Part shown: positions 753 through 24,780 of the stretch, piece after piece
Numbering within the stretch: the first letter of the stretch is position 1
Layout of the letters: each line of letters starts with the position of its first letter
Assembly (NCBI GenBank): GCA_946480825.1
Contig: CAMLLG010000006.1
Location: 15,883-79,882, forward strand
Direction of reading: 5' to 3'
DNA: 64,000 nt
DNA from: an uncultured Lysobacteraceae bacterium
GTDB lineage: Bacteria; Pseudomonadota; Gammaproteobacteria; Xanthomonadales; Xanthomonadaceae
Program-made: the position numbers and the translations under genes
The notes under the pieces: model-generated
Databases searched by the model: none
What the model was told of the DNA's origin: nothing
What the model saw: the letters and a program-made list of their open reading frames with translations, nothing else

Positions 753-1709
753 TCAGCTGAGCCGGATCGCCAGCCGAATCCCTTTCAGCCATCGCTGACC
801 GAGCCGTTCGGCGAGCGCGAACAAATCCTGGGCCGAGCCCGCCGCGCGTGCCCAGCCGCTCCCGAAGGCGGCGACGCGTGTCGTCCAACGGTTTGCATCG
901 TGATCGATGGCAATGACGATCGAAGGCGCGTTCTCCGGGATTCGGCCACGCTTGCCCCGCGCGTACGCCCGGCCGGTCCAATCCAGCAGTTGCAGGTAAT
1001 CCGCGGTGCTCAGATCGAAACTTGTACGCAGGCCGCCCGTGATCGGGCGCATCGGCCTGCTCAGCGATTCCGGGTTCGCGCGCGCCGTTTTGATGCGCGC
1101 GGCAGCGCTCGTATGCATGGAGGTCTCCAGTCGATCGGTCATCCCCGCCCGGATCGGATTCAGATCGACATAAGCCATGGCCGCGAGCACCGAGCGGGCG
1201 TCGCACAAGGCCTGGCATTTGTAGCGACCTTCCCAGAATCGCCCCTTGCAGCCATCCTCGCGATTCGCGCGGCGCGCGATCGGTTCGACGAGACATCGCA
1301 TGAGCCAAGAAAGGCTTCCCAGCCGATGGCGAACCAGATCGAGGCGCGACGGATCGGCCAGGAGACGCATGCGTTTTCCCTCCAACGCTGCCTCGGAGTC
1401 CTCCCGAGGCGGAAACAGGCGTATCCAGCGCGCCGCGACGTCCTCATCGCCCCATGCGGATACTGCCGCGGGATCGATGCCGAGCACCAGATGCAGATGA
1501 TTGCTCATGATGGCGTAAGCGTGGATCTCGACGGCGAAGCACTCGGCAACGAGCCGGATCCGCGTCTCAACCCAGGCCTTGCGGTGCTCGTAATTCCGCC
1601 CCGAGTATTCATCCCTGCCGCAGAGGAAGGCCCGGCGCACGCAGCGCTGTACGCAATGATAGGTGCCCGCGAGATCGGGCGGAACGATATGCGAACGTGG
1701 GCGGGTCAT
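753..1709 (-). CDS. REP-associated tyrosine transposase (RAYT, Y1_Tnp family)
   Basis: 318 residues. The N-terminal half has the Y1 transposase layout: G-T-Y-H-C-V-Q-R near residue 15, then an H-A-Y-A-I-M-S-N-H-L-H-L-V-L block whose H-L-H is the metal-binding HUH motif. A later A-Y-V-D-L-N-P-I-R-A-G segment is typical of RAYT proteins. Members of this IS200/IS605-related family nick single-stranded DNA at REP-type hairpins, usually as single domesticated chromosomal genes. The C-terminal third is not recognised and may be specific to the lineage. It is flanked by GGGACACCCAC repeats in opposite orientations and lies between two copies of a lipoprotein leader. The frame is intact and starts with ATG. 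Confidence 0.88.
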   Translation of the reverse strand: MTRPRSHIVPPDLAGTYHCVQRCVRRAFLCGRDEYSGRNYEHRKAWVETRIRLVAECFAVEIHAYAIMSNHLHLVLGIDPAAVSAWGDEDVAARWIRLFPPREDSEAALEGKRMRLLADPSRLDLVRHRLGSLSWLMRCLVEPIARRANREDGCKGRFWEGRYKCQALCDARSVLAAMAYVDLNPIRAGMTDRLETSMHTSAAARIKTARANPESLSRPMRPITGGLRTSFDLSTADYLQLLDWTGRAYARGKRGRIPENAPSIVIAIDHDANRWTTRVAAFGSGWARAAGSAQDLFALAERLGQRWLKGIRLAIRLS

Positions 1710-1784
1710 GGAAGAAGCGTGGCATGGATCAAGAGCGTGCGATGACGGGATTTACCGTGGATCGGTGTCGGAATAGTCTGATTG

Positions 1785-1794
1785 GTGGGTGTCC
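1785..1794 (+). repeat. GTGGGTGTCC repeat upstream of the RAYT gene
   Basis: This is the reverse complement of the core of the three repeats at 485-621. It lies about 75 bases upstream of the transposase start, so the gene is bracketed by opposed copies. It is too short to be significant by itself; the call rests on its position. Confidence 0.45.
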
Positions 1795-1841
1795 TCGTTT
1801 TATGCACTCGTTTTATGCATCATCGATTTATGCTTTCCACT

Positions 1842-1999
1842 TGCCGCCCACCTTCGTATCTCGTCGCTCGCTCAGCCCTGTGCTAGCGTTGCCCACGTCC
1901 GCGGGGAGGTGGTGCGCATGCGCGAAGATCGGCGCGACGAACGGTGCGAAAATCTGCACGGCAATGCGTGCAGGTCGGCAGGTCTGCGGACGCTGGCCG
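1842..1999 (+). repeat. Intact copy of the duplicated lipoprotein leader
   Basis: This is the partner of 297-462: leader, Shine-Dalgarno and first about 27 codons of the patatin gene. Similarity is visible across the whole stretch with scattered substitutions and small indels, so the duplication is not recent. Confidence 0.6.
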
Positions 2000-3462
2000 T
2001 CTGGTCGACAACGCTGCTGCTGTCGGCCTGCGCCAGCCTGCAACCGGCCCGCAATCCGCCCGCCGCGCCCGCCGCGGATCGCGCGGCGCAGTACCGGGTG
2101 CAGAACATGGCCCGCGGCGAGGGCAATTCCGACACGTTGTTGCTGAGCCTGACCTTCTCCGGCGGCGGCATGCGTTCGGCCGCGGCGTCGTATCACCTGC
2201 TGGATGCGCTGCGACGACAGCCGGTGCGCGTCGACGGCCGCGACACCACGTTGCTGCAGGAAGTCGATTTCATCTCCGCGATCTCAGGCGGCAGTTTCAC
2301 CGCGGCGTATTACGCGCTGCATCGCGACCGGTTTTTCGAAGATTATCCGGCCCGCGTGCTGCAGCGCGACCTGCAGGGCGAAATTCTCGGCGCGGTGCTG
2401 CGGCCGCGGCGCGCGTGGGCGTTGTCGAGCCCGTTCTACGGCCGCGGCGATCATCTGGCCGACGCGCTCGACGAGTCGCTGTTCGCCGGTGCCACGTTCG
2501 CCGACATGCCGCGCGAGCGGCCGTTCGTGCGCATCGGCGCCACCGACATGCTCGACGGTCGCCGGATCGAATTCACCCAGGAGAATTTCGACGATCTGTG
2601 CAGCGATCTGGGCCCGGTGCCGGTGGCGCGCGCGGTCGCAGCTTCGGCCGCGGTGCCCGGCATCTTCAGCCCGGTGAACGTCGCCGATTACAGCGATACC
2701 GGGCAGTGCCCCGGCGCGATCGAGCCGCGGCGTTACCGCCACCTGATCGACGGCGGCGTCGCCGACAATCTCGGCATCACCGGGCCGTTGCAGGCGATCG
2801 GCCGCTACAACGGGCTGGTGAACACGCTGCGCCGTTTCGGTTATCGCGGCATCCGCAGTTACGCGATCGTGGTGCTGAACGTCGAAAGCAATCCCGGCGA
2901 TCCGCGCGACGGCGATGCGCGGGTGCCGGGGCTGTGGCGCACGGTCAACGCCGCGATCAACGGCAACATGCGCATGGATTCGGAAGAACTGGCGGCGACG
3001 CTGCGTCAGCGCATCGCGCAGTGGCAGGACCAGATCGCGCGCGATCCCGAGGCGCAGCGCAGCGGCGTGTTCGCCACCGGCGTGCCGCGGGTGTTCCTGA
3101 TCGAGATCGGTTTCGAGCGCGTCGTCGATCCGGCGCTGCGCCAGCGGCTGCAGTCGATGCCCACCGCGCTGCGCCTGAGCCGCGAGGACGAGGCGCTGAT
3201 CGCGCGGTTCGTCCGCGATGCGCTGCGCGATTCGGTGGAATACCAGACGATGCTGCGCGTGCTGGCGGAGGAGGACGCGGCGTTCGCGGCGCGCGGCGAT
3301 ATCGCGCCGACGGTGCCGTCCGTGGACGACGACGCGCCGCGCCGCGCGCTGCGCCAGGCCTACGATGCCGCGGAGGACGCGCCGTTGGTTGCGCCGCCGG
3401 ATGCGCTGCCGGATGCGCCGGTCGCCGCGCCCGTGACGGCCGCGCCCGAACCCCGGCCCTGA
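1918..3462 (+). CDS. Patatin-like phospholipase lipoprotein
   Basis: 514 residues. I chose the ATG at 1918 because GGGGAGG at 1903-1909 sits 8 bases before it; the open frame extends further upstream without such a site. The N-terminus is basic, followed by L-A-V-W-S-T-T-L-L-L-S-A-C, a lipobox that predicts a lipid-anchored envelope protein. The patatin fold is clear: oxyanion-hole G-G-G-M-R at about 82-86, the nucleophile in A-I-S-G-G-S (Ser about 123), and the D-G-G of the Ser-Asp dyad (Asp about 278). The family hydrolyses acyl esters of phospholipids or neutral lipids. The C-terminal tail is Ala/Pro-rich and low complexity. It converges on the next gene with only 9 bases between stops. 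Substrate is unknown. Confidence 0.88.
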   Translation: MREDRRDERCENLHGNACRSAGLRTLAVWSTTLLLSACASLQPARNPPAAPAADRAAQYRVQNMARGEGNSDTLLLSLTFSGGGMRSAAASYHLLDALRRQPVRVDGRDTTLLQEVDFISAISGGSFTAAYYALHRDRFFEDYPARVLQRDLQGEILGAVLRPRRAWALSSPFYGRGDHLADALDESLFAGATFADMPRERPFVRIGATDMLDGRRIEFTQENFDDLCSDLGPVPVARAVAASAAVPGIFSPVNVADYSDTGQCPGAIEPRRYRHLIDGGVADNLGITGPLQAIGRYNGLVNTLRRFGYRGIRSYAIVVLNVESNPGDPRDGDARVPGLWRTVNAAINGNMRMDSEELAATLRQRIAQWQDQIARDPEAQRSGVFATGVPRVFLIEIGFERVVDPALRQRLQSMPTALRLSREDEALIARFVRDALRDSVEYQTMLRVLAEEDAAFAARGDIAPTVPSVDDDAPRRALRQAYDAAEDAPLVAPPDALPDAPVAAPVTAAPEPRP

Positions 3463-3471
3463 CCCGCAGAC

Positions 3472-5055
3472 CTATTCGCGCACGACCGGCGTCGCGTCGT
3501 CGTACTTCAGCCCGCTGGCGGCGCCGCCGCGTCCGGCGCTGCGGCGCACCCGCGCCCAGCTGGCGGTGCTGCCGTCGCTGCCGCGGGCGAGCACGTATTC
3601 GATCCGCAGGCGCACGCCTTCGCGGCCGATTTCCTCGTCGTGCACCCAGTCGCCGGGCGGCAGCAGCCGGGCGAGGGCGTCGTCGCCGGCGGCGCGGCGC
3701 AGGCGGCGGCCGCTGGCGTCGCTTTCCAGCACCAGCGGCGACCAGCCGGCGGGCACGTCGGTGGCCAGCCTGTAGCGGTAATCGGCGACGGTGTCTGGTT
3801 CTGTGGGTGTCCCTGTCGCTGTGGGTGTCCCCGTTGGTGCCTGGCGGCGGCCGTCGGGACCGGTGACGGTCTGCGCGATCGCCCAGACCCGGTTCGCCAT
3901 TTCGTCGCGGGCGAAGACCGCCTCTTCGACCGCTTCGCCGATCAGCGGCGTCGCCAGCGCCGGCGGCAGGAACAGCCACGGTTGCGGCACGCCGGCGGCG
4001 ATCGGCGCCCACAGCGCCCAGCCGCGGCCCGGTTCCGGGCCGGTGCGGGTCGCGGGGTCGAGCGCGGTGGCGCCGAACACGTCGCCGAAGGTGTCGGAGA
4101 CCGACATCGACACGACGCCGGAGAGGCCACCGGCCGGCAGCGTCGCCGGGGCGAGGAACATGTCGTTGCCGTAGACCATCGCCAACTGCAGCATCGCGGT
4201 GCGGCCCAGCTCCGCGGCAGGCGCGTCGACCGCGCCCAGATCGATGCTGGCGTCCTCGCATTCCCAGTAACGCGCCTGCGGCATGCCGCGGAAGCGCAGC
4301 GCGGTGGGCGTGCAGCGATGGCGCTGCACCTGCGGCGGGGCGCCGGAGGGTGCGGCGTCGAGGTCGCACGACAGCCAGCCGAGACCGCCGCCGTGGTGGT
4401 CGACGATGCGCAGCGGCGGGATGAGCCCGTCGCAGCGCAGTTCGGCTTCGTATTCCAGCCGCTGCGGACGCCACGCCCCGACCGGGTCCTGGTCGGTCTG
4501 ACGACCCAGCGTTTCCCCGATCAGGGTCCGCCAGAGGTCCACGACCGGGGCGCTGTCCCGGTCGCCCAGCCGGTCCGGCAGGTCGCCGGCGACCGCAGCC
4601 TCGTACAGCGCCTGGCCATCGCCGGCGCGATGCGCCAGCACCGCGTCGCCGGCCGCCGCCGCGACCCCGGCGGGCAGCGCGAATTCGCGGACGACGCGGC
4701 CGGCGGCGGCGTCGAGACCGGCGTCGTGGAGCATCCGCGCCAGCAGCGCGGCGGTCTCGGCGCGCTTGTGCGGGTTCCAGCCGCCCGGCGGGTCGGCCAC
4801 CGCTTCGAGATGGCGTTCCAGCGGCGCGCCACCGTCGACCGGCCGCTTGCCGTCGGCGCCGTACAGCGTCTGCAGCGGGTAGTGGGCCAGCGCGTATTCC
4901 ACGGCCACCGGCGTGCCGGCGTCCTCGCCGTCGAACTCGCCCAGCATCCACTGCCGGCCGAGCAGCCACAGCGGGTCCAGCAGGCGCGCGGCCAGGCCGG
5001 GGCGCAGATCCTCGGCGCGCTGCACCGGTTCGATCCGCAGGATCAGGTCGCTCAT
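3472..5055 (-). CDS. Conserved protein of unknown function, fifth gene of the giant-protein operon
   Basis: 527 residues. The ATG at 5055 overlaps the stop of the upstream gene by ATGA, so the longer frame starting at 5256 is not used. Near the N-terminus the protein carries L-L-D-P-L-W-L-L-G-R-Q-W followed by G-E-F-D-G-E-D-A-G-T-P-V. I recall this motif from uncharacterised proteins of actinobacteria and other bacteria, with no assigned role. No signal peptide or membrane segment is seen, so it is probably cytoplasmic. An in-frame 18-base duplication at 3794-3831 encodes G-T-P-T-A-T-G-T-P-T and matches the GGGACACCCAC repeat near the RAYT gene. It is the last gene of a five-gene operon and converges on the patatin gene. 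Confidence 0.75.
   Translation of the reverse strand: MSDLILRIEPVQRAEDLRPGLAARLLDPLWLLGRQWMLGEFDGEDAGTPVAVEYALAHYPLQTLYGADGKRPVDGGAPLERHLEAVADPPGGWNPHKRAETAALLARMLHDAGLDAAAGRVVREFALPAGVAAAAGDAVLAHRAGDGQALYEAAVAGDLPDRLGDRDSAPVVDLWRTLIGETLGRQTDQDPVGAWRPQRLEYEAELRCDGLIPPLRIVDHHGGGLGWLSCDLDAAPSGAPPQVQRHRCTPTALRFRGMPQARYWECEDASIDLGAVDAPAAELGRTAMLQLAMVYGNDMFLAPATLPAGGLSGVVSMSVSDTFGDVFGATALDPATRTGPEPGRGWALWAPIAAGVPQPWLFLPPALATPLIGEAVEEAVFARDEMANRVWAIAQTVTGPDGRRQAPTGTPTATGTPTEPDTVADYRYRLATDVPAGWSPLVLESDASGRRLRRAAGDDALARLLPPGDWVHDEEIGREGVRLRIEYVLARGSDGSTASWARVRRSAGRGGAASGLKYDDATPVVRE
3794..3831 (-). repeat. GGGACACCCAC repeat pair inside a coding region
   Basis: On the minus strand two GGGACACCCACAG units follow each other with an 18-base period (plus-strand GTGGGTGTCCC at 3803-3813 and 3821-3831). 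They keep the frame and add a Gly-Thr-Pro-Thr loop. The unit matches the repeats beside the RAYT gene. Confidence 0.6.
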
Positions 5056-8000
5056 GGTGCAGGGGCCTCCGAGGCCAGCTGGCCGAAACTGGGCTGATGG
5101 CGGCGGTCGTCGACCAGCGCGAGGGACGCGAACTGGGCCAGGCCGCCCAGCGCCTGCGGTTGCGCGGTGCGCAGTTGCGCCAGTTCGAGGGCTTCGACCA
5201 CGTGCGCGAGCACGCTGGACTCCGACCAGGTTTCCACGCCGACCCCGGGCACGCACAGCAGGATCGCGTTGGGCGCGGCCGTCGACGGCGCGTCGATGTG
5301 GAAGGCGATGGCGGCATCGGTCTGGGCTGCCGGCACCAGCTCGTTCCAGCGGTCGAGCAACAACCCGCAGACCGGATCGCGTGGGTCCTGCAGCGCCCGG
5401 CCGTCGCGCCGCCGCCAGGCGACGAATCCGGTGCGCCCGCGGCCCGGCACGCCCGGGTCGCCGACCCAGCGGTCGCCGGCGCGATACGGGGTCTGCGACA
5501 CCGTCAGCCCGTGGAGCCCGGCGGTGTCGTCGCCGCGCTGGGCGCGGGTTTCGAGTGCGGCCATCGCCGCCACCGCCGGGCGCACCCGCGCGGCGCGGGC
5601 CGCGAACGCGCGCAGCGTCGTCGCCGGCACGCCCAGTGCGCCGTGGAAACCTTTGACCCAGCCTTCGTCGACGCCGACGAGGCGCGGCAGCACCGGCTGC
5701 GCGTCGAACAGCGCGGCGAGGCGGTTGCGGACCGGGCCGGCGTCGGTCGCGAGGCCGATGCGGCGGTCGAGTTCGCGGTGCGCGTCCTGCCAGCCGGCGT
5801 CGGTGTCCACACCGGCAGGCAGGCCGAAGGCATCGGCCCAGCGTCGCGCGCCGGGCCGTGCGCCGGCGTCGGTGCGGGCCGTGTCCAGCGCCTTCAGCGC
5901 GGTGCGCGCGGCGTCGAGGGTGGCGGTCAGTCGGGCGTCGAGGTCGGCGGCGTCGACGGCGACCGCGCCGGGCAGATCGTCCGCCTGCAGCGGGCGCGCA
6001 TGGCCCAGCAGCGCCCGCGCGGCGGCGGCCACCGCCGCGGCCTCGGTCAGCGCCGAGACGTCCACGTCCCAGCCGGGATCGCGGTCCCAGCCGAAGCGTG
6101 CGGCGGGATCGCCGGTGAGCCGTTCGCCCGCCGCCCGCAGCCGGGCTTCAAGCGGGCCGCGTTCGATCCGCGCCGGTTCGGCGCCGGCGTAGGCCAGATC
6201 CAGCGGGCCCAGCGGCGGGTCGTCCGCCGGCAGCGCGTCGAGCAGTTCCTGCAATGTGAAGCTTTTGCCGGTGTCGTTGCCGTCGGCGTCGAGCAGCCGA
6301 ACCCGGATGCGGTCGGGCGCCGGCAGCAACTGGCTGAGCCAGCTGTCGAGATCGGGGTCGGCCAGCCCGCGCGGCGAGCCGGTCGGCCAGCCCGCGCGCA
6401 GCGGCCGGTCGGGGTCCAGCGCCAGCAGCAGGCGATGGTGGACCGCGATGCCGCGCTCCGGCGGCTGCAGCACGTCGAGACGGTCCGGCGGCGCCACCGC
6501 GCCGGACAGGATATCGGTGGCGCCTGCGGCGCGATCGGGATTGCCGTTGGCGAGCTGGTACACGCTTTCGGCCAGCAGCACGTCGGCGGTCGCGTCGATC
6601 GCGTCGCGGGCCTCCGTCAGCGCCGCCAGCAGCGCGCCGGCCTGCAGCGGGTCCGGCGCCTGCGGCCGCTGCAGTTCGGCGCCGAGCCGGGCGAGATCGG
6701 GCGTTTCGGTCAGTTCGGCGGTGGCCAGACGCACCAGCGCCAGCCCGTCGCAGACCGCTTCGGCGGCGGTTTCCGGCAGGGTCGCGCCGCCGGTGCCGAT
6801 CGGACGCGCCGCGGTCGAGGCGATCCGGCGCAGCCGCGCGATAAGCGCCGGCGCGGTGCCGCCGGCCTGCATCAGCGTGCGTTCGATCCGGTAGCCCAGC
6901 AGCGCCGGCATCGCCTGGCCTTCGCGCAGGCCGTCGAGCAGGGCACGGGCGGTGCGCGTGCGCCGCGAGGACAGTTCCACCGCGTAGTCGTCGGCGCGCG
7001 GCCCGCCGGGCTGGTCGATGCGCCGTGCGTGGTCGGCCGACAGCAGCACGCCGGCGGCGATCGCGTGCGGCACGCTGGGCGCGAGGACGTGACCGGCGTT
7101 GCCGCCGGCGCGCGCGCGCGGGATCGCGCCGACCCAGCCGAAGGCCCCGACCTGCACGCCGCGCACGAAGCCGTCCGGCCCGGTGCCCAGCATGTTGTCG
7201 TTGCGCAGCAGGCGCAGGCGTTCGGTGGCGCGCGCGGTGTGCAGGGCATCGAGGCGGTTGGCGTACAGCCCCAGCCCGGCGCCGAACAGCAGCGCCAGCC
7301 GCGCGTCGTCCACCGCCGCCAGCGCGCGCAGCGCGTCGTAGAGCAGATGGACCGCGCCGATGGGCGTGCGCCGGTCGGCGAGGATCTCGTCGAGCGACGC
7401 GATCTGGCCCGGCGCAACGTAACGCGGCGGCGCCTGCACCGCGAGCCGGTCGGCGAGCCGGTGGTAGCGTCCGCCCGGTTCGAAATCGCCTTCGCTGGCC
7501 AGACCTTCGTTCAACAGGATCCGGCGCGTGTCGTCCGCCGCCGCTTCCAGCAGGGCGATCCGGGCGACGTGGAAGAGCAGCGCGCGCGGGCTGGCATCCG
7601 TGAGCACCTGGCCCAGCAGATCGTTCGGCGACCCCGTATCCGCCAGCCGCCGCAGGTACTCGGACGGCCGTTCGCCGGGACCGGGATCCGGTGGCGCCAC
7701 CAGCGGCAGCGCGGCGCCGGTTTCGGCCATCAGCACGCGTTCGGTCAGCGGCGGCTGCGCGCCCGGGTCGCCGCCGAGCTGCGCATACAGGCCGCGCGCG
7801 TCCTCTCGGTGGCGTTCGAGACGCCCGCGCAGCGCGGCGTCCGCGCTGGCGAAGACATGAGCGGCGAGCGCATCGCCCAGCAGCAGGCGCAGATCGGCGG
7901 CGACGGCGACGCCTTCGGTCTGCAGTACTTCGATCATCCGTTCGACCGGGTCGGCGGGGCTGTCGCCGGCGATCCGCGGCGTCTTCGCCGCGGCCGGTGC

Positions 8001-9488
8001 GAACGCCGCCTCGCGCAGCGCCGCCGCGCCCGCCCACAGCCTTTCCCAGTCGTCGCCCGACGCCAGGTCGCGGCCCAGCGCCAGCGGCAGCACGCCGTAG
8101 GGCTGGGCGCGCACCATCAACGTCGGCAGCGGGCCGAGCGCGCTGCCGTTGAACAGCAGATCGACGCCCAGCGCCACCGCCTGCGCCGGTTCGCCCTTGG
8201 CGAATGCCGCGCGCAGCCCGGATTCGAACGCGGCGCGCAGTACGCCCAGCAGCGTGCGTTCGCGCTGCAGGGTATCGTCGCCGGCGCCCTCCAGCCAGCC
8301 GAACACCTGCGGCGACAGGCCCAGCGCTTCGGCCAGCGCCGCCGCGGGCGCGAACGGATCGTGGCGTTCGACGTCGCGGCGCAGGACCGGGTCGAACACC
8401 ATGTGCAGGTAGTGCGGCAAGCGGCGCGGGCGCGGGTCCGCGGTGGGGTCGAGCGAATCGTGAATCCTGAATCCGAGCGCCCGGTCGTACAGCGCCATCG
8501 GGTCCGGGCGCAGGCTGAAATGCGTGCGCTCGCCGGGCAGGGCATTGGTCGCGCTGCCCGGCGGCGGCAGCGACAGTCCGCCGGTCGCATCCTGGCCGCG
8601 CAGATGCGCGTCCCAGGCATCGGCGGTGGTCGCGGGGTCGTCGCTCGCGCGCACGCCCAGCACCACCAGCCGCGCGACCCGCGCGCCGGCGTCGGGAAGT
8701 TTCACCCGCAGCGCCATGCCGGCCGCTTCGGCGGCGGCGAAATCGACCATCCACAGGCTCTCGGCATCCGGCGAGCCGTCGCCGGCGGCGCCGGCCAGCG
8801 CCGGATCGGGCCCCAGCGCCAGCGTTTCGCGCACCGGCATCGCGGCTTCGGCGCGCAGCGGCGGGGCACGCGCGTCGTCCAGCCAGACATGGGCGACGAA
8901 CCGCTCCGGCAACAGCGCCGCGCGCGGCACCCGCGCATAGCCGGGCGGGCGCGACGGTACGCCGTCGAGGCTGCGCTGCGCCGCCAGCCACAGCGCGCGC
9001 GCGTGGCCGACATCGCGCGCCAGCTGCAGCCACGCCTCGTGCATCGGCGGGATGTCGAACGTCGTCTCGATCGCCTTGCGGAAACGCTGCCACGACGCGC
9101 GCTCGACATCGCTGACGCCGGGGTCGTGGGCGTCGACATGGATTTCGTCGGGGTAGATGCGCACCAGCAACGCGTCGTCGAGATAGCGCGTTTCCAGACG
9201 GACCGGCAGCAGCGCCAGCGGCAGCCGCGGGTCCAGCGCGTCGGCGCCGAGCCCATCGCCGCGGTCCGCGCTGTCCTTCAGCAGCGCCTGGCGCTGGTCC
9301 GCGATCTGCGCGCGCAGCGTGTCGCGCGCCGCCACCAGCTGCGCTTCGTCGTCGCGCAGCGCGTCGGCATCGCCCTCGCCGCGCGCGCGCGCCGCGCGCA
9401 GGTCGCCGAGTTTGGCCTCGGTGGCGGCGAGCTTGCGACGCAGGCGCGCGATCGTGGCCTGCAGGGTGCGTTGGGTGGCGTTGGGCAT
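5052..9488 (-). CDS. Giant conserved protein of unknown function (1478 aa), fourth gene of the operon
   Basis: 1478 residues with an ATG start; an AGAGGACC Shine-Dalgarno-like sequence overlaps the end of the upstream gene. Residues 1-70 are a predicted coiled coil rich in Arg, Ala, Glu and Gln. Next comes L-P-V-R-L-E-T-R-Y and L-V-R-I-Y-P-D-E-I-H-V-D-A-H, a block I recall from large uncharacterised bacterial proteins. The rest is Ala/Leu/Arg-rich with no repeat, membrane or export signal that I can see. Its size, cytoplasmic character and coupling on both sides (ATGA overlap downstream, 9-base gap upstream) suggest a structural or scaffold component of one complex. No enzymatic motif was found, and I assign no function. 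Confidence 0.72.
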   Translation of the reverse strand: MPNATQRTLQATIARLRRKLAATEAKLGDLRAARARGEGDADALRDDEAQLVAARDTLRAQIADQRQALLKDSADRGDGLGADALDPRLPLALLPVRLETRYLDDALLVRIYPDEIHVDAHDPGVSDVERASWQRFRKAIETTFDIPPMHEAWLQLARDVGHARALWLAAQRSLDGVPSRPPGYARVPRAALLPERFVAHVWLDDARAPPLRAEAAMPVRETLALGPDPALAGAAGDGSPDAESLWMVDFAAAEAAGMALRVKLPDAGARVARLVVLGVRASDDPATTADAWDAHLRGQDATGGLSLPPPGSATNALPGERTHFSLRPDPMALYDRALGFRIHDSLDPTADPRPRRLPHYLHMVFDPVLRRDVERHDPFAPAAALAEALGLSPQVFGWLEGAGDDTLQRERTLLGVLRAAFESGLRAAFAKGEPAQAVALGVDLLFNGSALGPLPTLMVRAQPYGVLPLALGRDLASGDDWERLWAGAAALREAAFAPAAAKTPRIAGDSPADPVERMIEVLQTEGVAVAADLRLLLGDALAAHVFASADAALRGRLERHREDARGLYAQLGGDPGAQPPLTERVLMAETGAALPLVAPPDPGPGERPSEYLRRLADTGSPNDLLGQVLTDASPRALLFHVARIALLEAAADDTRRILLNEGLASEGDFEPGGRYHRLADRLAVQAPPRYVAPGQIASLDEILADRRTPIGAVHLLYDALRALAAVDDARLALLFGAGLGLYANRLDALHTARATERLRLLRNDNMLGTGPDGFVRGVQVGAFGWVGAIPRARAGGNAGHVLAPSVPHAIAAGVLLSADHARRIDQPGGPRADDYAVELSSRRTRTARALLDGLREGQAMPALLGYRIERTLMQAGGTAPALIARLRRIASTAARPIGTGGATLPETAAEAVCDGLALVRLATAELTETPDLARLGAELQRPQAPDPLQAGALLAALTEARDAIDATADVLLAESVYQLANGNPDRAAGATDILSGAVAPPDRLDVLQPPERGIAVHHRLLLALDPDRPLRAGWPTGSPRGLADPDLDSWLSQLLPAPDRIRVRLLDADGNDTGKSFTLQELLDALPADDPPLGPLDLAYAGAEPARIERGPLEARLRAAGERLTGDPAARFGWDRDPGWDVDVSALTEAAAVAAAARALLGHARPLQADDLPGAVAVDAADLDARLTATLDAARTALKALDTARTDAGARPGARRWADAFGLPAGVDTDAGWQDAHRELDRRIGLATDAGPVRNRLAALFDAQPVLPRLVGVDEGWVKGFHGALGVPATTLRAFAARAARVRPAVAAMAALETRAQRGDDTAGLHGLTVSQTPYRAGDRWVGDPGVPGRGRTGFVAWRRRDGRALQDPRDPVCGLLLDRWNELVPAAQTDAAIAFHIDAPSTAAPNAILLCVPGVGVETWSESSVLAHVVEALELAQLRTAQPQALGGLAQFASLALVDDRRHQPSFGQLASEAPAP

Positions 9489-9497
9489 GAAGGTCCT

Positions 9498-12245
9498 CTA
9501 CGCCCCCAGCAGGGTCGCGGCGTGGATGTAGACGCGCTGCTGCCGACGCAGCGCGGTTTGGGCGAACAGGTCGGAGCCGCCGGTGCCGATGACCTGCTGG
9601 CCGGAAGGCGGGTTGCCGGCCGGCCCGAAGCGCAGGTCCACCGGGGGCTCCTGGAAGACCAGGAACCAGCCGGGCCCGCCGTCGTCGCCGGTCGCCTCGG
9701 CCGCGGTCAGGTCGAAACCGAAACACGCGAGGCCCCCGGGCAGGCGCAGGTCCACCAGCGGATACAGGGTGGACTGCGCGCTGCCGAGGTCGGACAGCGG
9801 TGTCGGCGGTGTGGTCGCCGAGGCTTTCTGCAGGAACACCCTGGCGCGGTCGAAGCGCTGCAGCAGCGCGCCACGCACGGCGATCACCATCCGCGGCGAG
9901 GCGCCGGGCAGGCCGTGCCCGCCGAGCCGGCCGGCCCAGGTGTGCAGGTCGGGCCATTCGGCGCAGGTCTCCGACCAGAACCGGTCGAAGACCGTGCCGC
10001 GCTGATCGGTGGGGAAGCCGCGCCACAGCATCTCGCGGCCGATTTCCTCGTTCAGGCCGGCCAGGTAGCCCTCGATGAAGGCCGGATTGACGTTCATCAG
10101 CGCGATGTAGTGCTCGGGTGCGTCGCGGGCCTGCAGCGCCGGCGCCATCCAGTCGCGGTTGAGCGCCAGCAGCGGGCGCAGCATCGGCCACGGCAGTTTC
10201 GGCGCCAGCAGGATCGCGTCGAGGGTGTCGGCGGTCGCCGTGGCCAGCGCCGGCGAGCGCGCATCGGTGCCGATCCGGGCGCGGGTCCGACGCGCGATGG
10301 TGAAGGCCGGATCGGCCGCCGCGCGCAGGCCGTCGAACAGCGCCTCGCGCTCGCCGCCACCGGCCCGGCCCAGCGGGCGGCAATTCGCGGTGCGCGGCTT
10401 GGCCCAGCGGCTGGCCAGCGCGCGCGCGGCCTCCAGCGATTCGGGGGCGGTCGCGGTGATCGTGGGCAGGCGACCCGGCGGGCGGCGGCCGGGCAGGGGA
10501 TCGATCGGGACCGGCGTGTTCCGTCGCGGATCAAGGACACGCGGATCGAGGACGCGCGGATCGAGGACGCGCGGATTGACGATCGCAGGATCGATCACGC
10601 GCGGATCGAGGATGGTCGGATCGATCCGGAACCGGTCGCCGGGCAGGCGACGTCCGGGAATGCCGCCCAGGGCTGCCAGCTCGCCGTACGTCAGAACGAC
10701 GGCCTCGGGCGCCGCGGCCGTCGGGCGGCGCCCGCCGCCGTCGGCCAGCCGCAGCAGCAGGTCGGCGCTCTGCGGTTGGCCATCCCGCTGTCGCCGCAGC
10801 CGGCGCATGATCGGCCCGTTCGGCCGCACCAGCTTGCGGAACGCGCCGCTGGTGGCCAGCCGCGGCAGGCAACTGCGCGCCACTTCGGCGGCCGCGGTCA
10901 ACCCGCGCGGCGCCAGCGGCAGATGGCCCAGCATCGGCGCCAGCCACAGCAGCGCACCGAGATCCTCGCCGTCGCGCCCGCGGGCCAGATCGGGCGCCAG
11001 GCGGCGGACGAACAGCGCGGTCGCGGCCGCGCGTGCGGTCTGGCCGATGCGCAGCCACTGGTTGGCGCGGTCGATCTCGCCGGCCTGCTCCCAGATCGCC
11101 GCCATCATCTCTTCCTGATGCCGGCGCACCACCTCGGCGCCCAGCCCGGCGGCGGTCCGGCGCACCGGGTCGAGATTCAGCGCGCGGACCCAAGCCGGTG
11201 CCTGCGCGCCCAGCGGCAGGGCGGCGCGCACGTGCCGGCCGCCGTACACCGGCGGCGCCAGCGGCGAGAGGTCGGCCAGCCGGGCCGCAAGATGGCCGAC
11301 CAGCGGCGATGGCGTGGCGGCCGCGGCGGTGGGGCCCATCACCGCGTCCATGCCGAGGACCGCATCGGCGAACAGGGGGCCGTCCGCGCCTTCGGGCGCG
11401 CCGGCGTCCAGTCGCCGGCCCGCGGCCGTCGTCGGATCGTAGGGCTTCAATTGCCCGACCAGATCGGCGAACCCGTCCGCGGCGCCGGTGCTGAAGCGCC
11501 AGTGGTCGTAGATCGGCAGATCCACGGGCTGGCCGACGGTCCATGCCGGGTCGAGCAGCGCCGGGTCGGCGAGGTCGATGGTCTCGCCCAGGCCGGCCGC
11601 GCGCCCGCCGCGGAAGGTCGGCACCAGACAGGCCAGATAATCGGTGTTCTCCAGCAGCACGATCGGGCACAGCAGCCGCGACCGGAACCGCCGCGGTGCG
11701 TCCCGTGCGCCGGCGATGACCGCGGCGCGGTCGTCGCCGGCCCTGGCGTCGCCTTCCTGCACGTGCGCCCACCGGGCGGCGTACGCCAGATCCGGCAGCC
11801 GCGCGCTGCCGGCATCGCCCAGTCGCAGCACCGCGCCATGCGGGCCCGGCACCAGCTCGGCCTCGGTCGCCGGCACCGCCACCAGACACAGCCAGGGCAT
11901 CAGCGTGTCGTCGGTGCCGGGCGCATGAGGCGTGAACAGCCACGGCAGATCCGGCCGCAGGAATTCGATCGACGCGAACTGCTCCGGCGACACCGCGGTG
12001 GCGTCGGGCGCAGGGACCCGCGCCAGGATCTGATCGGCGGCCAGCCCCACGGCATCGGCCGGGCCCAGCACCGCGAGGGTCGCGCCCGGTGCGGTCCAGA
12101 CGGTGGGCGTGCCGTCGTCGCCGGTGGTGTTCAGACGCAGCGCGGTGTCGACCGTCGCGCGGATGCGCGCCTGCGGGGCGCCCGCGGCATGGGCGATCGC
12201 CGCGGCCACGGCCGGACGGGCATAGCGCAGGAATCGCAGGCTCAC
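9498..12245 (-). CDS. Large conserved protein of unknown function (915 aa), third gene of the operon
   Basis: 915 residues starting with GTG at 12245, which overlaps the TGA of a mini-ORF by GTGA. The N-terminal part has R-P-D-L-P-W-L-F-T-P followed by M-P-W-L-C-L-V-A-V. The C-terminal part has N-E-E-I-G-R-E-M-L-W-R-G-F-P-T-D-Q-R-G-T. I recall both from uncharacterised proteins that travel with the neighbouring families. At about residues 539-573 lies a run of pentapeptides of the type V-L-D-P-R encoded by 15-base repeats. There is no signal peptide, transmembrane helix or catalytic signature. The last third (Q-Q-V-I-G-T-G-G-S-D-L-F-A-Q) may be a conserved tail. Function is not assigned. Confidence 0.72.
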   Translation of the reverse strand: MSLRFLRYARPAVAAAIAHAAGAPQARIRATVDTALRLNTTGDDGTPTVWTAPGATLAVLGPADAVGLAADQILARVPAPDATAVSPEQFASIEFLRPDLPWLFTPHAPGTDDTLMPWLCLVAVPATEAELVPGPHGAVLRLGDAGSARLPDLAYAARWAHVQEGDARAGDDRAAVIAGARDAPRRFRSRLLCPIVLLENTDYLACLVPTFRGGRAAGLGETIDLADPALLDPAWTVGQPVDLPIYDHWRFSTGAADGFADLVGQLKPYDPTTAAGRRLDAGAPEGADGPLFADAVLGMDAVMGPTAAAATPSPLVGHLAARLADLSPLAPPVYGGRHVRAALPLGAQAPAWVRALNLDPVRRTAAGLGAEVVRRHQEEMMAAIWEQAGEIDRANQWLRIGQTARAAATALFVRRLAPDLARGRDGEDLGALLWLAPMLGHLPLAPRGLTAAAEVARSCLPRLATSGAFRKLVRPNGPIMRRLRRQRDGQPQSADLLLRLADGGGRRPTAAAPEAVVLTYGELAALGGIPGRRLPGDRFRIDPTILDPRVIDPAIVNPRVLDPRVLDPRVLDPRRNTPVPIDPLPGRRPPGRLPTITATAPESLEAARALASRWAKPRTANCRPLGRAGGGEREALFDGLRAAADPAFTIARRTRARIGTDARSPALATATADTLDAILLAPKLPWPMLRPLLALNRDWMAPALQARDAPEHYIALMNVNPAFIEGYLAGLNEEIGREMLWRGFPTDQRGTVFDRFWSETCAEWPDLHTWAGRLGGHGLPGASPRMVIAVRGALLQRFDRARVFLQKASATTPPTPLSDLGSAQSTLYPLVDLRLPGGLACFGFDLTAAEATGDDGGPGWFLVFQEPPVDLRFGPAGNPPSGQQVIGTGGSDLFAQTALRRQQRVYIHAATLLGA
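10527..10630 (-). repeat. 15-base coding repeat (V-L-D-P-R pentapeptides)
   Basis: Six to seven imperfect copies of a 15-base unit (plus-strand GGATCGAGGACGCGC) encode x-x-D-P-R/T/A pentapeptides in the 915-aa protein. The central copies are nearly identical at base level, so copy number may vary between strains. Confidence 0.7.
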
Positions 12246-12303
12246 GGGTCTGGGCTCAAGGGTCGATGGCTCATGGGTCGATGGCTCATGGGTCGATGGT
12301 CAT
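12242..12303 (-). repeat. Tandem 15-mer forming a stop-restart relay between two operon genes
   Basis: Three units of GGGTCGATGGCTCAT (12260-12274, 12275-12289, 12290-12303, the last one base short) fill the gap between two large genes. On the coding strand each unit carries ATGA. The stop of the 1129-aa gene overlaps an ATG that opens M-T-I-D-P and stops at 12286. That stop overlaps an ATG opening MSHRPMSHRPLSPDP, whose TGA at 12242-12244 overlaps the GTG start of the next gene. The unit resembles the start of that gene (GTGAGCCTGCGA), so it may have arisen by duplication of the start site. Translation of the mini-peptides is inferred. Confidence 0.6.
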
Positions 12304-15300
12304 GGATCGGCCACCACGATGGCTTCGTGCGCCGGCACCAGCGTCTGCACGCCGCCCCGGCCGCGACGCCTCTCGTCCGCCAGGACGGCATGGGCGGCTT
12401 CGCCGCCGGGAAAGGTCTGCAGCGTGTCGGGGTCGGCCAGCACGTGGCGTTCCGGCCGGATCGTGATCGCGGGCGCGCCGGCATCGCCGAGCAGTCGGGT
12501 ATCGGCCCGCACGAAACCCAGCCCGGGTTTCCCGGGCGCGATGCGTGCGGCCTGCGCACCGGTCGGATGCACCACCGTCTCCTCGAACTCCGCCGTCACC
12601 GGCGCGAGCAGCGTCCGCGGCAGCCACAGCCCGGCCGGCGTCGCTTCCACGCCGGCGGGCAGGCTCTCGAACGCCGGTCGCGTCAGTTTCTCGTCGTCGC
12701 TCAGCGGTTCGAACTCGCCCGGCGCGAAATCCTCCTCCACCGCCCGCGCCGCCACCGTGGCGCCGCCCAGCGACAGCCCGTCGATGGCGAAGGCGGCGGG
12801 GTCGGACACCAGGGCGGTGCCGAACTTGCGCAGCACCTTGCCCAGCGGCAACAGGCGCTGGCGGAAGCCCAGCCCGCCCAGCGGATGCACCAGCACCGTG
12901 CCCGGCAACGGTTCGACCCGCCGCAGCGACACCACCGCCTCGGCGTCGGCCCGCGGCAGCGCGGCCCAGTTCTCCGCACGCACGATCTCCGCCGCCAACT
13001 GCCGCTGCAGATCGCTGCGCGGCAGCCCGGCGGGCGGCGTTTCGGCCGCGGGTTCGCCCAGCACCGCCTCGAACGGAATGCGCAGCGGCACGATGATCTG
13101 CACTTCGACGAAGCCGCTGATCCGCCACGGCTCCGGGCCGATGAGCGACGCTTCCAGCCGCGCCAGGAACAGGACCACGTCGTTGCACTTGATCGCGATG
13201 CCCGCGCGCAGGTCGGCCGCGAAGAACGGCGGGTCGAAGATCAGCAGCACGTCGAACTGCGCGTAGGCCTCGACGCTGAACACGCCCAGCGCCGTCTCTA
13301 CCGCCAGCCGGAAATCCGCGCCGGCGCCGAACTGCACGGCGTTGGAGGTCACCGCGAAATACGAGGTGAGCGTGAACGTCGGGTTTTCGCCCGCCGACAG
13401 CGCGATCCCCATCCGCGCCGGCGCGTGGAAATCCGGCGGCGGCAGGAAACGCGGATTGAAACCGCCCACCGACAGCACGAAGGCCTTGGTCGCGCCCCAC
13501 GAAATCAGCATCGCCATGCCGCCGGTCACCGCGAACGCGGCGATCCGCGAATCCACCAGCCGCGCTTCGATGGTCAGCCTGCCGCGGCCGAGGTCGATCA
13601 GGCCCACGACTTCCAGGCGCAGATCGACCACCGGATCGTCCTTGGTCGGCAGCGCCGCGCGCATCCGCCCCAGGATCGCGATCACGATCGGCGAAGGCAG
13701 CGCCAGCAGCAGCGCCACGTCCATCTCCAGCAGCGCGTTCGCGCCCCAGCCGATCTTCACCATCGGCCCGAACACGTGGCGGTCGCGCTGCGGCGGGAAC
13801 ACCCGGCCGATGTCGTCGACGATCCGGCGCGCGTTCGCCACCACGTCGCGCGGAAACAGGATCGACCCCAAGCGGCCCTCGCGCAGGCACTGCCCCAGCG
13901 CGTCGGTGTCCATGTTGCGGTGGATGCCCACCAGCCCGCCGATGCCGATCAGGCTGAAACCGAAACCGAGCTGGATCGGCGGAAATTCCGCGGTGATGAC
14001 CAGCAGCATGCTGAAACCGTCGCCGCCGTCCGGCAGCCGCGTGGTCACCACGCCCACCGCGTTGAACGACAGCGCCTTCATCGACAGCTGCACCGCCCCG
14101 GCGTACAGCGCCGCGTCCGGATCGAAGAACAGATAACCGCCGCCTTTCACCGGGCCTGCGTCGAGGACCAGGCCGACCCCGGCAGGCGGTTTGAAGCCGA
14201 TGCCGAAGACCAGGCCTGCGGCTCCGTCGTCCCGCGGCCCCAACTGCATCTGCAGGCCGATGCGCTCGACCGATGCCGCGAGCGGCCCGATTGCCAGCCC
14301 CGCATCGAGCATGCCGACGACCTTGAGCCCGTGTTCCGACACGGTGGCGCTGATCCTCAATTGTTCGAGGATGATCGGCCCGAGGCTTCGCTCGATCGTG
14401 AGTACGAATTCGAGCCCCAGCGCCCCTTCGAATCGCAGGCCACCCTTCCCGGACCAGGCGATCGCCAGATCGCACTCTGCCGCCAGTCCTTCGGGCGGCA
14501 AGCTCGCCTTGAGGAAGCCGTCTTCGGGGGGCACGTTGATCGCCAGCCGTATGCCCGTGGCGGCGAGTCGGAATCCGCCGTCGACGAAGGGTTCGACGGC
14601 GGACACATCGAGCGTCCCGCCGATCGCCAGTTCGCCCAGCTCTGCGTGGATACCATCGGGTTTGCCGAATCGCAGCAGCGGCCCCGCGCCCGGACGACGG
14701 CCCAGGTCCGCGCGCAGCGACAACGCTGCGGCACCGGCCTCGAAGTCGACGCCCGTGCGACGGATGGCGAGCCCGCCCGGTTGGCCGCTGGCGGCCAGCG
14801 ATGCGCGCCAATCGCCGAAATCGCGGGATACGCCCAATGCGCCCTGCGGAACGAAAACGAGTTCGTAGCCGCCGCCGGGCAGATCGAACAGCGTGAAGCA
14901 CAGCAGTGACGTCGCCTGCACGCCGGTCTGACCGGTGTCGATCGGCAGCATTACGAACAGCGAGCGCCGCTCCGCGTCCAGATGCGCCGCCGGAATGGTA
15001 TTGGGCGCGGCGCGGAGTTCGGATGCCCAGGCGATCAGACCAAGATCGCGCAGAAAGGCGGCCCATGCCGGAAAGGTTCGCTGCGCGACCTGTTCGGCCG
15101 AAAGGCCGGCGGGATCGGACAGTCCGAAAAGCGCGAAGAATGCATCGCCAGGCGAGGCGAAGAAGCGTGAGATCGCGTCGAAATCCAGCTTCGGATACGC
15201 GCGTGCGGGACGCACCGTGCCGCCCGATGGCGATGCGATGGCTGGCCGTTCGGCGTAGACCAGCACGCCCAACAATTCAAGCCCCGAACGGATCGCCGGG

Positions 15301-15689
15301 TGGAAGTTGCCGAGCGCGAGCACGATCAGAGAGCCCAGGAGATCCTCGACGAACTGTAGGCCCAGGTCCCGAGGCAGCCCCGGCGCGGGCGAGGTGCTCT
15401 CGCCGAAGGTCGAAAACCGGCCGATGCCCGTCATCAGTTCCGGAAGAATCGTCAGCAGGTCTTCGAAGCCGATCGGTTCGACGGGATCCAGGTTGCGCAG
15501 TTTCACCAGCGCCGCCGCCAGATCCGCCGCCAGACCGACGAATTGCGCGGGATCGAGCCCTGTCCCTTGCAGATCCCAACCGGTCAGATCGGTCAGTGTG
15601 CCGATGGCCTCAGGCGTATCGGCCAGCCGCTCCAACGGCTCGGCGAGCGTGGTCGCGAATAGAACGATGGCGCGTCCGGCGTCGATCAT
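12300..15689 (-). CDS. DUF6603-like giant protein (1129 aa), second gene of the operon
   Basis: 1129 residues; its ATG overlaps the stop of the upstream gene by ATGA. Residues of about 450-880 are unusually rich in alternating hydrophobic strands and Gly, with F-P-P-I-Q-L-G-F-G-F-S-L followed by I-G-G-L-V-G-I-H-R-N and a later W-G-A-T-K-A-F segment. This matches my memory of DUF6603, a domain of unknown function from diverse bacteria. The strand pattern recalls long beta-sheet proteins that bind lipids or form sheets, but that is only an impression. There is no signal peptide, although the composition would suit membrane or lipid contact. It should work with the four genes it is coupled to. 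Confidence 0.72.
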   Translation of the reverse strand: MIDAGRAIVLFATTLAEPLERLADTPEAIGTLTDLTGWDLQGTGLDPAQFVGLAADLAAALVKLRNLDPVEPIGFEDLLTILPELMTGIGRFSTFGESTSPAPGLPRDLGLQFVEDLLGSLIVLALGNFHPAIRSGLELLGVLVYAERPAIASPSGGTVRPARAYPKLDFDAISRFFASPGDAFFALFGLSDPAGLSAEQVAQRTFPAWAAFLRDLGLIAWASELRAAPNTIPAAHLDAERRSLFVMLPIDTGQTGVQATSLLCFTLFDLPGGGYELVFVPQGALGVSRDFGDWRASLAASGQPGGLAIRRTGVDFEAGAAALSLRADLGRRPGAGPLLRFGKPDGIHAELGELAIGGTLDVSAVEPFVDGGFRLAATGIRLAINVPPEDGFLKASLPPEGLAAECDLAIAWSGKGGLRFEGALGLEFVLTIERSLGPIILEQLRISATVSEHGLKVVGMLDAGLAIGPLAASVERIGLQMQLGPRDDGAAGLVFGIGFKPPAGVGLVLDAGPVKGGGYLFFDPDAALYAGAVQLSMKALSFNAVGVVTTRLPDGGDGFSMLLVITAEFPPIQLGFGFSLIGIGGLVGIHRNMDTDALGQCLREGRLGSILFPRDVVANARRIVDDIGRVFPPQRDRHVFGPMVKIGWGANALLEMDVALLLALPSPIVIAILGRMRAALPTKDDPVVDLRLEVVGLIDLGRGRLTIEARLVDSRIAAFAVTGGMAMLISWGATKAFVLSVGGFNPRFLPPPDFHAPARMGIALSAGENPTFTLTSYFAVTSNAVQFGAGADFRLAVETALGVFSVEAYAQFDVLLIFDPPFFAADLRAGIAIKCNDVVLFLARLEASLIGPEPWRISGFVEVQIIVPLRIPFEAVLGEPAAETPPAGLPRSDLQRQLAAEIVRAENWAALPRADAEAVVSLRRVEPLPGTVLVHPLGGLGFRQRLLPLGKVLRKFGTALVSDPAAFAIDGLSLGGATVAARAVEEDFAPGEFEPLSDDEKLTRPAFESLPAGVEATPAGLWLPRTLLAPVTAEFEETVVHPTGAQAARIAPGKPGLGFVRADTRLLGDAGAPAITIRPERHVLADPDTLQTFPGGEAAHAVLADERRRGRGGVQTLVPAHEAIVVADP

Positions 15690-17161
15690 CCGAGCGCCAA
15701 CCAGCCAAGCAGCGCGACAATGCGCACGGCGAGTTCCGCAAGCAGCTTGGCCGCCACCAGGATGGCACCCAGAGTCGCGGCAGCGGCGACACCGGCGGCA
15801 ACCGCGACCTCGATCTTGGCTTTGACCTGTCTATGCGCTTCCTCGCGCGCATTGGCCGTCTGGGGGAACTTGAGGGCGTACAGATCGCTCGGCACCTTGA
15901 TGTATTTGTAGACGATCGCACCCGCTATCGGTGAGGCGAAGGCGACCCAACCGCCCGGCGCGGGCGCGGTACCGAACGTGCCGATCTGTCCCGGCAGTCC
16001 CGGCAGCGCCGGAATGTTGAACACGTTGAGCACGGCGACGTACATGGAGGCTTCCGCTGCGGCCTGGGCCAGGCCCTCGCCGTTCGGCCCCGCAGGCTTG
16101 ATTTCGTAAACCCAGCCGGGCGGCTGGCCATGCGTCATCACCAGCTCGAATATGTCGGGCCGCGTCAATGCGGCGCTGCGGCCCAGATCGCTGACGTCGC
16201 CGCCCATCGAGAAATGCGAACGCAGGAAGTTGAAGATCGACTCCACCGGTGTCGTGTTGGTCCAGATGCCGTCGCTCGGCAACACCACGTGCGTTCCGTG
16301 CGCGGCGCGATAGAAGAGAGCGATCGCGGTATGCATCGCGGTGCCGATGAAGTAGCCGTAGGGCATTCTCTCGGGCTTGTTGAATTCCAGAAAATCCATT
16401 CTCGTCCGATCGAAATTCCTGGCGAGATTCTTCAATGCGTCGAACCAGCCGGGCGGTCCCACCATGCCGGCCTTCAGCGGCACGGACGCGCCGCGCCCTC
16501 CCGGTGCCGCAGGAGGTAGGTCGTCCAGATCGGCGATCATGTCCGCGGCCAGGCCTTCCGCATCTCCAGGCTGGAATCCAAGGCTGACGAACACTTCGAT
16601 CATGTCCTGCATTGGCAATTCGACGAGATGCGTGGCGAGCGTCAGCCAATGCTGCAGATCGGCGGGAGTCGTCTCGTGAATCGCACCCATGAGGCGGGCG
16701 GCCATCCATGCGGCGCGCACTGCGGTGTCGACGTTCGGCAGCGCATCGAACGCGGGCTGCAGCAACGTGAGATAGGAAACGCCGCCGAGCGTGGGCCCTC
16801 GTTTCGAGAGCGTGGCCAGAACGGTACGGCGGTCGGGCCAGTTGAGCTGCGACAGCTTGTCGACGGCCTCCAGCAGGCCCGGCCCGATGAATGCCTGTTC
16901 CAGTTCGCCGATCACGGTCTCTGGTGCGAAAGGACTGGCGCGTGGTCGGGGATAGACCTGCGCGATGGCGTCTTCGACCTGCCGTATGGCGTCAGGCGCG
17001 TAGGGAATCCGGGATTTCGGCTGCGAAAGCTGGGCCTCCTGCATCTTCCAGCTACCGAGCAGGTCGGTCAGCACCATGCCCGCGCTGGGGAACCCCTGCG
17101 CAGCGCCGATGGCTGCGATGCGCGCGCCGACCGCATCCGCAAGATCGATGTTGGCAGTCAA
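15686..17161 (-). CDS. Putative PD-(D/E)XK-fold protein with hydrophobic C-terminus, first gene of the operon
   Basis: 491 residues. The longest frame begins with TTG at 17176 directly after a TAG. GGAGG at 17170-17174 points instead to the TTG at 17161, with 8-base spacing, so I use that start. Around residues 334-375 the protein reads R-P-D-I-F-E, then W-V-Y-E-I-K-P, then an Ala/Glu-rich helix ending A-S-M-Y-V-A-V-L. Asp336, Glu353 and Lys355 fit the D...E-x-K core of restriction-endonuclease-like folds, including many toxin nucleases. A preceding helix has G-T-A-M-H-T-A-I-A. The last about 50 residues are strongly hydrophobic and could form one or two membrane helices. No similar named protein is recognised. 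Nuclease activity is inference from motif spacing. Confidence 0.6.
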   Translation of the reverse strand: MTANIDLADAVGARIAAIGAAQGFPSAGMVLTDLLGSWKMQEAQLSQPKSRIPYAPDAIRQVEDAIAQVYPRPRASPFAPETVIGELEQAFIGPGLLEAVDKLSQLNWPDRRTVLATLSKRGPTLGGVSYLTLLQPAFDALPNVDTAVRAAWMAARLMGAIHETTPADLQHWLTLATHLVELPMQDMIEVFVSLGFQPGDAEGLAADMIADLDDLPPAAPGGRGASVPLKAGMVGPPGWFDALKNLARNFDRTRMDFLEFNKPERMPYGYFIGTAMHTAIALFYRAAHGTHVVLPSDGIWTNTTPVESIFNFLRSHFSMGGDVSDLGRSAALTRPDIFELVMTHGQPPGWVYEIKPAGPNGEGLAQAAAEASMYVAVLNVFNIPALPGLPGQIGTFGTAPAPGGWVAFASPIAGAIVYKYIKVPSDLYALKFPQTANAREEAHRQVKAKIEVAVAAGVAAAATLGAILVAAKLLAELAVRIVALLGWLALG

Positions 17162-17169
17162 ACGGATCG

Positions 17170-17174
17170 CCTCC
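17170..17174 (-). promoter_or_regulatory. Ribosome-binding site that fixes a TTG start
   Basis: GGAGG on the minus strand, 8 bases before the TTG at 17161. The upstream TTG at 17176 overlaps this site and has nothing comparable before it. An unusual start codon for the first gene of a long operon may keep expression low. Confidence 0.55.
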
Positions 17175-17344
17175 AACTACGGTTGCGAAGTGCTGGCGAA
17201 ACGCCAGCGGCGACTTCCATGATCTCCCTGCGACCCATCGACACTCCTCGCGGCGAACGAATTGGACGCGGCCGGGCGGGGGGCGAAGCGGCGTGGCACG
17301 CCGCCGCGCGGTACCGTCCCGCGGCCATCCATGACCCAAACGAA

Positions 17345-17373
17345 AAACCGGCTGGCGCGAGGCCAGCCGGTTT
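17345..17373 (-). terminator. Rho-independent terminator of htpG
   Basis: A 12-bp perfect stem (17345-17356 with 17362-17373, 5-base loop) reads on the minus strand as a GC-rich hairpin followed by TTTTTCG. It lies 49 bases downstream of the htpG stop and separates it from the five-gene operon. Confidence 0.85.
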
Positions 17374-24779: not shown

Positions 24780-24780
24780 G

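Follow-up and report, generated by a model that had tools for sequence, protein, structure and literature searches.

Polymorphic toxin systems combine a constant carrier with an exchangeable enzymatic part that is replaced by recombination at a fixed place, while Tc toxin complexes, contractile injection systems, and type VI adaptors mount interchangeable cargo on a multi-protein carrier, and CBASS, Avs, and other conflict systems exchange effectors between related systems. Likeness to each of these is found in an operon of an uncultured Lysobacteraceae bacterium, located in a stretch of 64,000 nt that was analyzed as a whole (hereafter, the window; GenBank assembly GCA_946480825.1, contig CAMLLG010000006.1, positions 15,883–79,882 of the forward strand). 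There, a gene for a nuclease-like protein precedes four genes called here A, B, C, and D. It is well supported by genome comparison that A–D form a core that is kept together, and that this operon is one instance of a widespread system not previously described, in which the gene ahead of A is an interchangeable payload. A is a full member of DUF6603 (PF20248), a family without assigned function; no paper on DUF6603, PF20248, or IPR046538 was found in the literature searched, from which the operon, the joint within A described below, and the link to a payload are likewise absent.

The likeness is in each case partial. Unlike in polymorphic toxins, the payload is a separate gene placed before the adaptor A rather than the C-terminal tip of the carrier, and no immunity gene stands between the two. 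A–D have no Pfam, NCBIfam, or PHROGs match to components of Tc, contractile injection, or type VI systems; at the sequence level, Pfam finds no TcA, TcB, or TcC domain in them, and genes for a sheath, tube, baseplate, or ATPase were seen neither among A–D nor among the 25 of 117 families listed for 88 flank proteins. In contrast to CBASS, Avs, and other conflict systems, A–D show no P-loop or other nucleotide-binding family in the Pfam search and nothing convincing in PADLOC, whose sole match is that of Cas10_Id to B at E 0.026. Finally, A appears to differ from large outer-membrane beta-barrels by its Foldseek TM-scores of about 0.15–0.17, by hosts that include archaea and Gram-positive bacteria, and by the rarity of signal-peptide-like starts.

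A Four-Gene Core in Bacteria and Archaea

A scan with a B alignment across 84,980 species, each represented by a single genome, returned at least 591 matching stretches; a relative is encoded in at least 556 of them. The 80 top-ranking genome loci, 10 loci from plasmid or phage records, and the window form the set of 91 loci (L numbers below) that was searched with profiles. By NCBI names, the 80 genome loci cover 14 phyla, 12 bacterial and two archaeal, with one locus unassigned. B and C are present in all 91 loci, A in 85, and D in 86. The contig ends less than 200 bp from B in all loci lacking A (L045, L048, L059, L060, L070, and L076) and stops inside C in all those lacking D (L062, L067, L071, L076, and L085), so that no true absence of either gene was seen. 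The core genes of each locus lie on a single strand in the order A-B-C-D, with the exception of L018 (Leptolyngbya), where B-C-D is ahead of A; rearranged orders are further seen in Leptolyngbya (B-C-D-PhoD-A) and at a second Propionivibrio locus (C-D-520 aa gene-A-B). C and D form a single frame in one metagenome-assembled genome (MAG; L075), and in Rhizobium both B and C are in two pieces. Among plasmid records, tblastn detected B together with D in 13, and D also in a 14th, from Streptomyces anthocyanicus.

Some of these loci have additional features. D stands alone on the S. anthocyanicus plasmid (L161, 14296–16101, by annotation table), with IS5 transposases about 4 kb upstream, and is possibly a remnant. 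A gene for a NACHT-type ATPase (L157, 701–4645) lies upstream of the Propionivibrio C-D-payload-A-B locus. A gene of 270–310 aa, coiled-coil-like by weak Pfam matches, is inserted between B and C in L063 (12623–13432) and nine similar Nitrospira-type loci.

Because the 80 loci had been picked via B, genomes were also sampled in reverse, by DUF6603 alone. The domain was found in 9 of 299 genomes of the Caulobacter phylum, 9 of 296 of the Humibacillus phylum, 11 of 198 of the Spirosoma phylum (10 above cut-off), and 3 of 196 of the Halosimplex phylum, and in 0 of 14 control genomes in each of the four samples. In the last three, a B match adjoins A in 16 of 20 new A loci above cut-off; among the others, the retrieved piece stops inside A in L135 and L144, and L133 and L140 have no B at E ≤ 0.01 in the 0.75–0.87 kb visible past A. 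Besides Caulobacter, eight genomes of the first sample have a sister form, with DUF6603 inside a protein of 1.5–3.5 kaa; a weak B-like neighbor is present in seven of them, and none at E ≤ 1 in the eighth (G112). When the same sample was searched with the B profile, all matching genomes (5 of 299) also had A. The original prediction had asked whether the families occur mostly apart, or whether the large proteins are clear homologs of a known, unrelated pathway: A and B do not occur mostly apart, and no such pathway was recognized in library searches.

The sister form itself corresponds to L124–L130 (Pseudomonadota), as well as L131 and L132. Its long versions in L125, L126, L128, and, less clearly, L127 are followed by the B-like gene and then by genes of about 340 and 1270 aa; none of these drew a Pfam match in L125, the single locus scanned.

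The earlier assignment of A to DUF6603 is borne out by a match over residues 433–999 (E = 3.8e-119, 399 bits versus a cut-off of 27). For B, C, and D, no Pfam or NCBIfam model scores above its cut-off, and neither PADLOC nor PHROGs gives a convincing match. At E ≤ 0.001, B has 417 relatives and D 48. In annotated genomes, A is named “DUF6603 domain-containing” and B, C, and D are mostly “hypothetical.” B displays weak Ig-like segments (residues 70–255 and 711–912), and its predicted structure (model pLDDT 85.9) matches nothing among PDB or viral folds at E ≤ 0.001. A short LDPRV-type repeat is located at about residues 546–576, in the variable linker of B, and several actinobacterial B proteins, one of them annotated with VCBS repeats, are much longer than that of the window.

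Interchangeable Payloads Ahead of A

Flank clustering and family scans place the genes ahead of A in unrelated families. A PhoD-like cluster accounts for 28 loci from eight phylum-level groups, and PhoD-type segments are conserved across its 28-member alignment. Other classes are trypsin-like (20 proteins, 11 loci; GDSG[SA] in 15 of 20 members), M64 (12 proteins, eight loci; HExxHxxG in 7 of 12), both motif counts including members cut by locus ends, and PLD-like (five loci). A single galactose-oxidase-like protein, a single beta-lactamase-like protein, and a DUF2515 pair are rarer occupants, and an enzyme gene can also follow D: in L009 it encodes a subtilase, and in L053 a phage-type lysozyme that carries LGFP repeats. 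On a quick tree of B, 64 labeled rows require at least 28 changes of payload class, and the 48 rows of the five main classes require 14. The gap between payload and A does not exceed 20 nt in 49 of 63 loci, and in L055 (Micromonospora; 1671–9860) an alpha/beta-hydrolase domain precedes A without any break in the reading frame, and codon-position GC stays even over 2729 codons. In this single payload-A fusion the enzyme is thus N-terminal, and not C-terminal as the definition of polymorphic toxins requires. From these comparisons, the gene before A is an interchangeable payload and not part of the core.

In the window, this position is occupied by gene 1 (15686–17176, minus strand), of 496 aa from a TTG or 491 aa from the start chosen earlier. 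PD-(D/E)XK enzymes follow the rule P-D, then (D/E)-x-K; P340-D341 and E358-x-K360 are invariant in 15 of 15 aligned homologs of gene 1, which has neither a Pfam nuclease match nor a PDB sequence match. The proposed PD-(D/E)XK-like character is thereby supported by a conserved motif, the fold and nuclease activity being putative. The hydrophobic C-terminal tail is conserved among homologs as well, and this is the sole basis for the suggestion that the protein is possibly membrane-active. Since the nuclease-like gene is one of many interchangeable payloads, the system consists of four core genes and a payload. Of the undescribed five-gene system first put forward, the co-occurrence of the families in distant phyla and the lack of a recognized pathway hold, but the nuclease-like gene does not belong to the core.

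A Two-Part Adaptor and the Exchange of Cassettes

The closest relative of the window operon, in a Lysobacter MAG (L011), occupies the same site beside htpG, whose DNA is 93% identical. Protein identity is 85% for D, 83% for C, 79% for B, and 75% for A from residue 294 on, versus 22% for A residues 1–293; this segment and gene 1 have no tblastn match in L011, where the payload is PhoD-like. At the DNA level, the two A genes match from nt 1486 to the end, with 89% identity. A (1129 aa; 12300–15689, minus strand) can thus be divided into a payload-specific N-terminal half, approximately residues 1–495 (14205–15689), and a constant C-terminal half, approximately residues 496–1129 (12300–14204), that contains most of the DUF6603 beta-meander, as drawn from PF20248, the L011 DNA, and an AlphaFold model whose confidence is highest at about 460–880. 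The 24 strands of A are hydrophobic on one side, with a mean Kyte-Doolittle value of 2.21 versus -0.74 on the opposite face, a contrast inflated by the fact that the more hydrophobic face was the one chosen.

The same joint is visible within single operons. Three Nitrospira operons carry two payload-A pairs ahead of one B-C-D, the order in N. defluvii being PLD, A1, M64, A2, B, a 270-aa gene, C, and D. From nt 1555–1556 of A1 on, the DNA of A1 and A2 is 99.6% identical in L063 (1767 bp), 99.94% in L072 (1747 bp), and 86.4% in L074 (1737 bp); before it, and behind different payloads, the proteins are only about 20–30% identical. When A sequences are placed in a tree, a clade with SH-aLRT 99 unites the PLD-linked copies from four loci and excludes the second A of their own operons. 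More generally, in a comparison of 1953 pairs, which share rows and are therefore not independent, two A proteins of a given core identity resemble each other more in the N-terminal part if they share a payload class: where the core is at least 0.7 identical, N-terminal identity is 0.72 in 18 same-class pairs versus 0.26 in 13 different-class pairs, and 0 of 2000 label permutations reached the observed same-class excess. An exception is the same-class pair L074_A2/L072_A2, with just 0.30, and at the other end, L084 (Acidobacteriota) and L013 (Variovorax), both PhoD-like, reach an identity of 0.64 in the N-terminal part of A, above the 0.54 of their core. As judged from these alignments, A is bipartite, with an N-terminal half that varies with the payload and a constant C-terminal half, and the payload gene and the 5′ half of A are exchanged jointly at a fixed joint.

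The Operon in the Window and Its Neighbors

The remaining core genes of the window, all without a known family, are B (915 aa; 9498–12245), C (1478 aa; 5052–9488), and D (527 aa; 3472–5055), on the minus strand like A and gene 1. Open reading frames and sequence agree with the sizes and tight junctions originally described, and GC by codon position (0.67–0.82, 0.48–0.57, and 0.79–0.91 in the five frames) fits minus-strand coding. There are 4-nt overlaps at gene 1/A and C/D and a 9-nt gap between B and C. Between A and B, which are 54 nt apart, a short tandem repeat (12243–12303) forms an ATGA/ATGA/ATGA/TTGA/GTGA ladder of overlapping stop and start codons, for which “stop-restart relay” is a correct description. 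Median gaps in other genomes, which rest on gene starts called by a simple caller of our own, are -4 for payload-A (n = 63), 1 for A-B (82), 4 for B-C (79), and 3 for C-D (84).

htpG is located upstream of the operon. A terminator was thought to follow htpG and isolate the operon; an inverted repeat is indeed seen by eye after htpG at about 17344–17372, but a terminator scan did not list it, giving one site, elsewhere, versus 5.6 expected by chance. Past the 5′ end of the payload gene, at a distance of about 2 kb and with htpG in between, is a Wadjet operon (19572–26304, minus strand) with JetD (PF09983/DUF3322), JetC (SMC-like), JetB (DUF4194), and JetA (DUF3375). On the other side, a patatin-like phospholipase gene (1789–3462, plus strand) converges with D at a distance of 9 nt.

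Possible Role of the System

These data suggest, with about an even chance of being right, that the system makes a modular enzyme-carrying complex in which A attaches a matching enzyme to a common, extracellularly active carrier made of B, C, and D. Binding of the cognate payload would fall to the N-terminal half of A, and docking onto the carrier to the constant amphipathic beta half of A; the loaded carrier would then work outside the producing cell, most likely by bringing the enzyme to other cells. This enzyme would be a nuclease in the window and a phosphodiesterase-like, peptidase, or lysozyme protein in other loci. The carrier function is suggested by the co-occurrence and order of the core, payload exchange, the payload-plus-A cassette, the payload-A and C-D fusions of L055 and L075, and the fact that no P-loop family was found in A–D. 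Work outside the cell is suggested by the kinds of payload and by surface-type annotations: lysozymes with LGFP repeats, galactose-oxidase-like proteins, and M64 peptidases are usually extracellular, haloarchaeal C and D are annotated with BGTF and lamin-tail, and a Streptomyces B with VCBS. As already stated for the five window proteins, members of the core families seldom have a signal-peptide-like N-terminus: by a simple threshold, hydrophobic N-terminal segments occur in 5/91 A, 0/93 B, 3/92 C, and 0/87 D proteins and in 5/60 proteins at the payload position, compared with 47/225 flank genes. Four of the five payload segments come from the PhoD-like cluster, and the fifth, in L081, resembles a true signal peptide. 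We infer that the system would act outside the cell by a route that dispenses with signal peptides. A scan of 88 of the 191 flank proteins showed no recurring secretion, phage-tail, or defense family among the 25 of 117 families listed (AAA_21 in two).

Several points weigh against this extracellular carrier. Docking, complex formation, export, and targets are all steps that we infer, and signal-peptide-like starts are rare in A–D and payloads. The whole-length A tree follows the payload no better than that of B (12 changes each over 44 loci), and fold matches of the beta part of A, a putative closed barrel, are weak. Many payload genes have no recognizable domain; among 20 proteins scanned, no family is above cut-off for, e.g., L024, L046, L051, L083, L085, and L086. 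GDSG is absent from 5 of 20 trypsin-like members, and Trypsin models stay under the Pfam cut-off (26.0 versus 27.6 bits in L030). The usual payload-A spacing of 1–20 nt leaves no space for an immunity gene, unlike in antibacterial toxins, and no recurrent small immunity candidate was seen among the flank clusters.

An unlikely alternative is extracellular display without delivery, B-C-D being a scaffold that is released or attached to the surface and that holds, by means of A, an exoenzyme serving in nutrition, wall work, or the remodeling of a matrix. The rarity of signal-peptide-like starts is no less a difficulty here, a nuclease payload would be a poor fit, and the matches of B are too weak to count. 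Intracellular defense, in which B, C, and D would sense infection and A would release or activate an interchangeable killing enzyme, is improbable too. Defense systems often use PD-(D/E)XK, PLD-like, and peptidase effectors, the Wadjet operon is close to the payload gene, some operons are on plasmids, and the distribution is as sparse as the reverse sampling indicates; against this stand the PADLOC result, the lack of a P-loop family, a lysozyme with wall-binding repeats among the payloads, and the lack of a recurring defense family in the flanks. Lipid handling by the amphipathic half of A, as a groove or barrel with lipid-active enzymes as partners, is highly improbable: the one-sided strands, weak Foldseek matches to ushers, LptD, SlpA, and ApoB, and PhoD-like, PLD-like, and alpha/beta-hydrolase payloads agree with it, but the peptidase, nuclease, and lysozyme payloads are not lipid-acting, the best rows reach only the TM-scores quoted above, and face selection inflates the hydrophobicity contrast. 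Of the defense, toxin, or assembly functions raised in the original prediction, the evidence thus leans, short of proof, toward a carrier acting outside the cell.

Significance

The A1/A2 pairs of Nitrospira are a clear natural case of cassette exchange within one operon of a multi-protein system, and would remain so even if its function were different. The cassette joint provides a rule that pairs each enzyme with its adaptor, which makes the docking idea testable. More tentatively, and with the balance slightly against it, the system may represent a class of enzyme-delivery particle new to science, present in bacteria and archaea, built from families without known relatives, and re-armed through recombination events in which the enzyme gene and the docking half of its adaptor are replaced as one. 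If the carrier reading is right, an enzyme-carrying machine would exist in at least 14 phyla, where standard annotation has passed it over.
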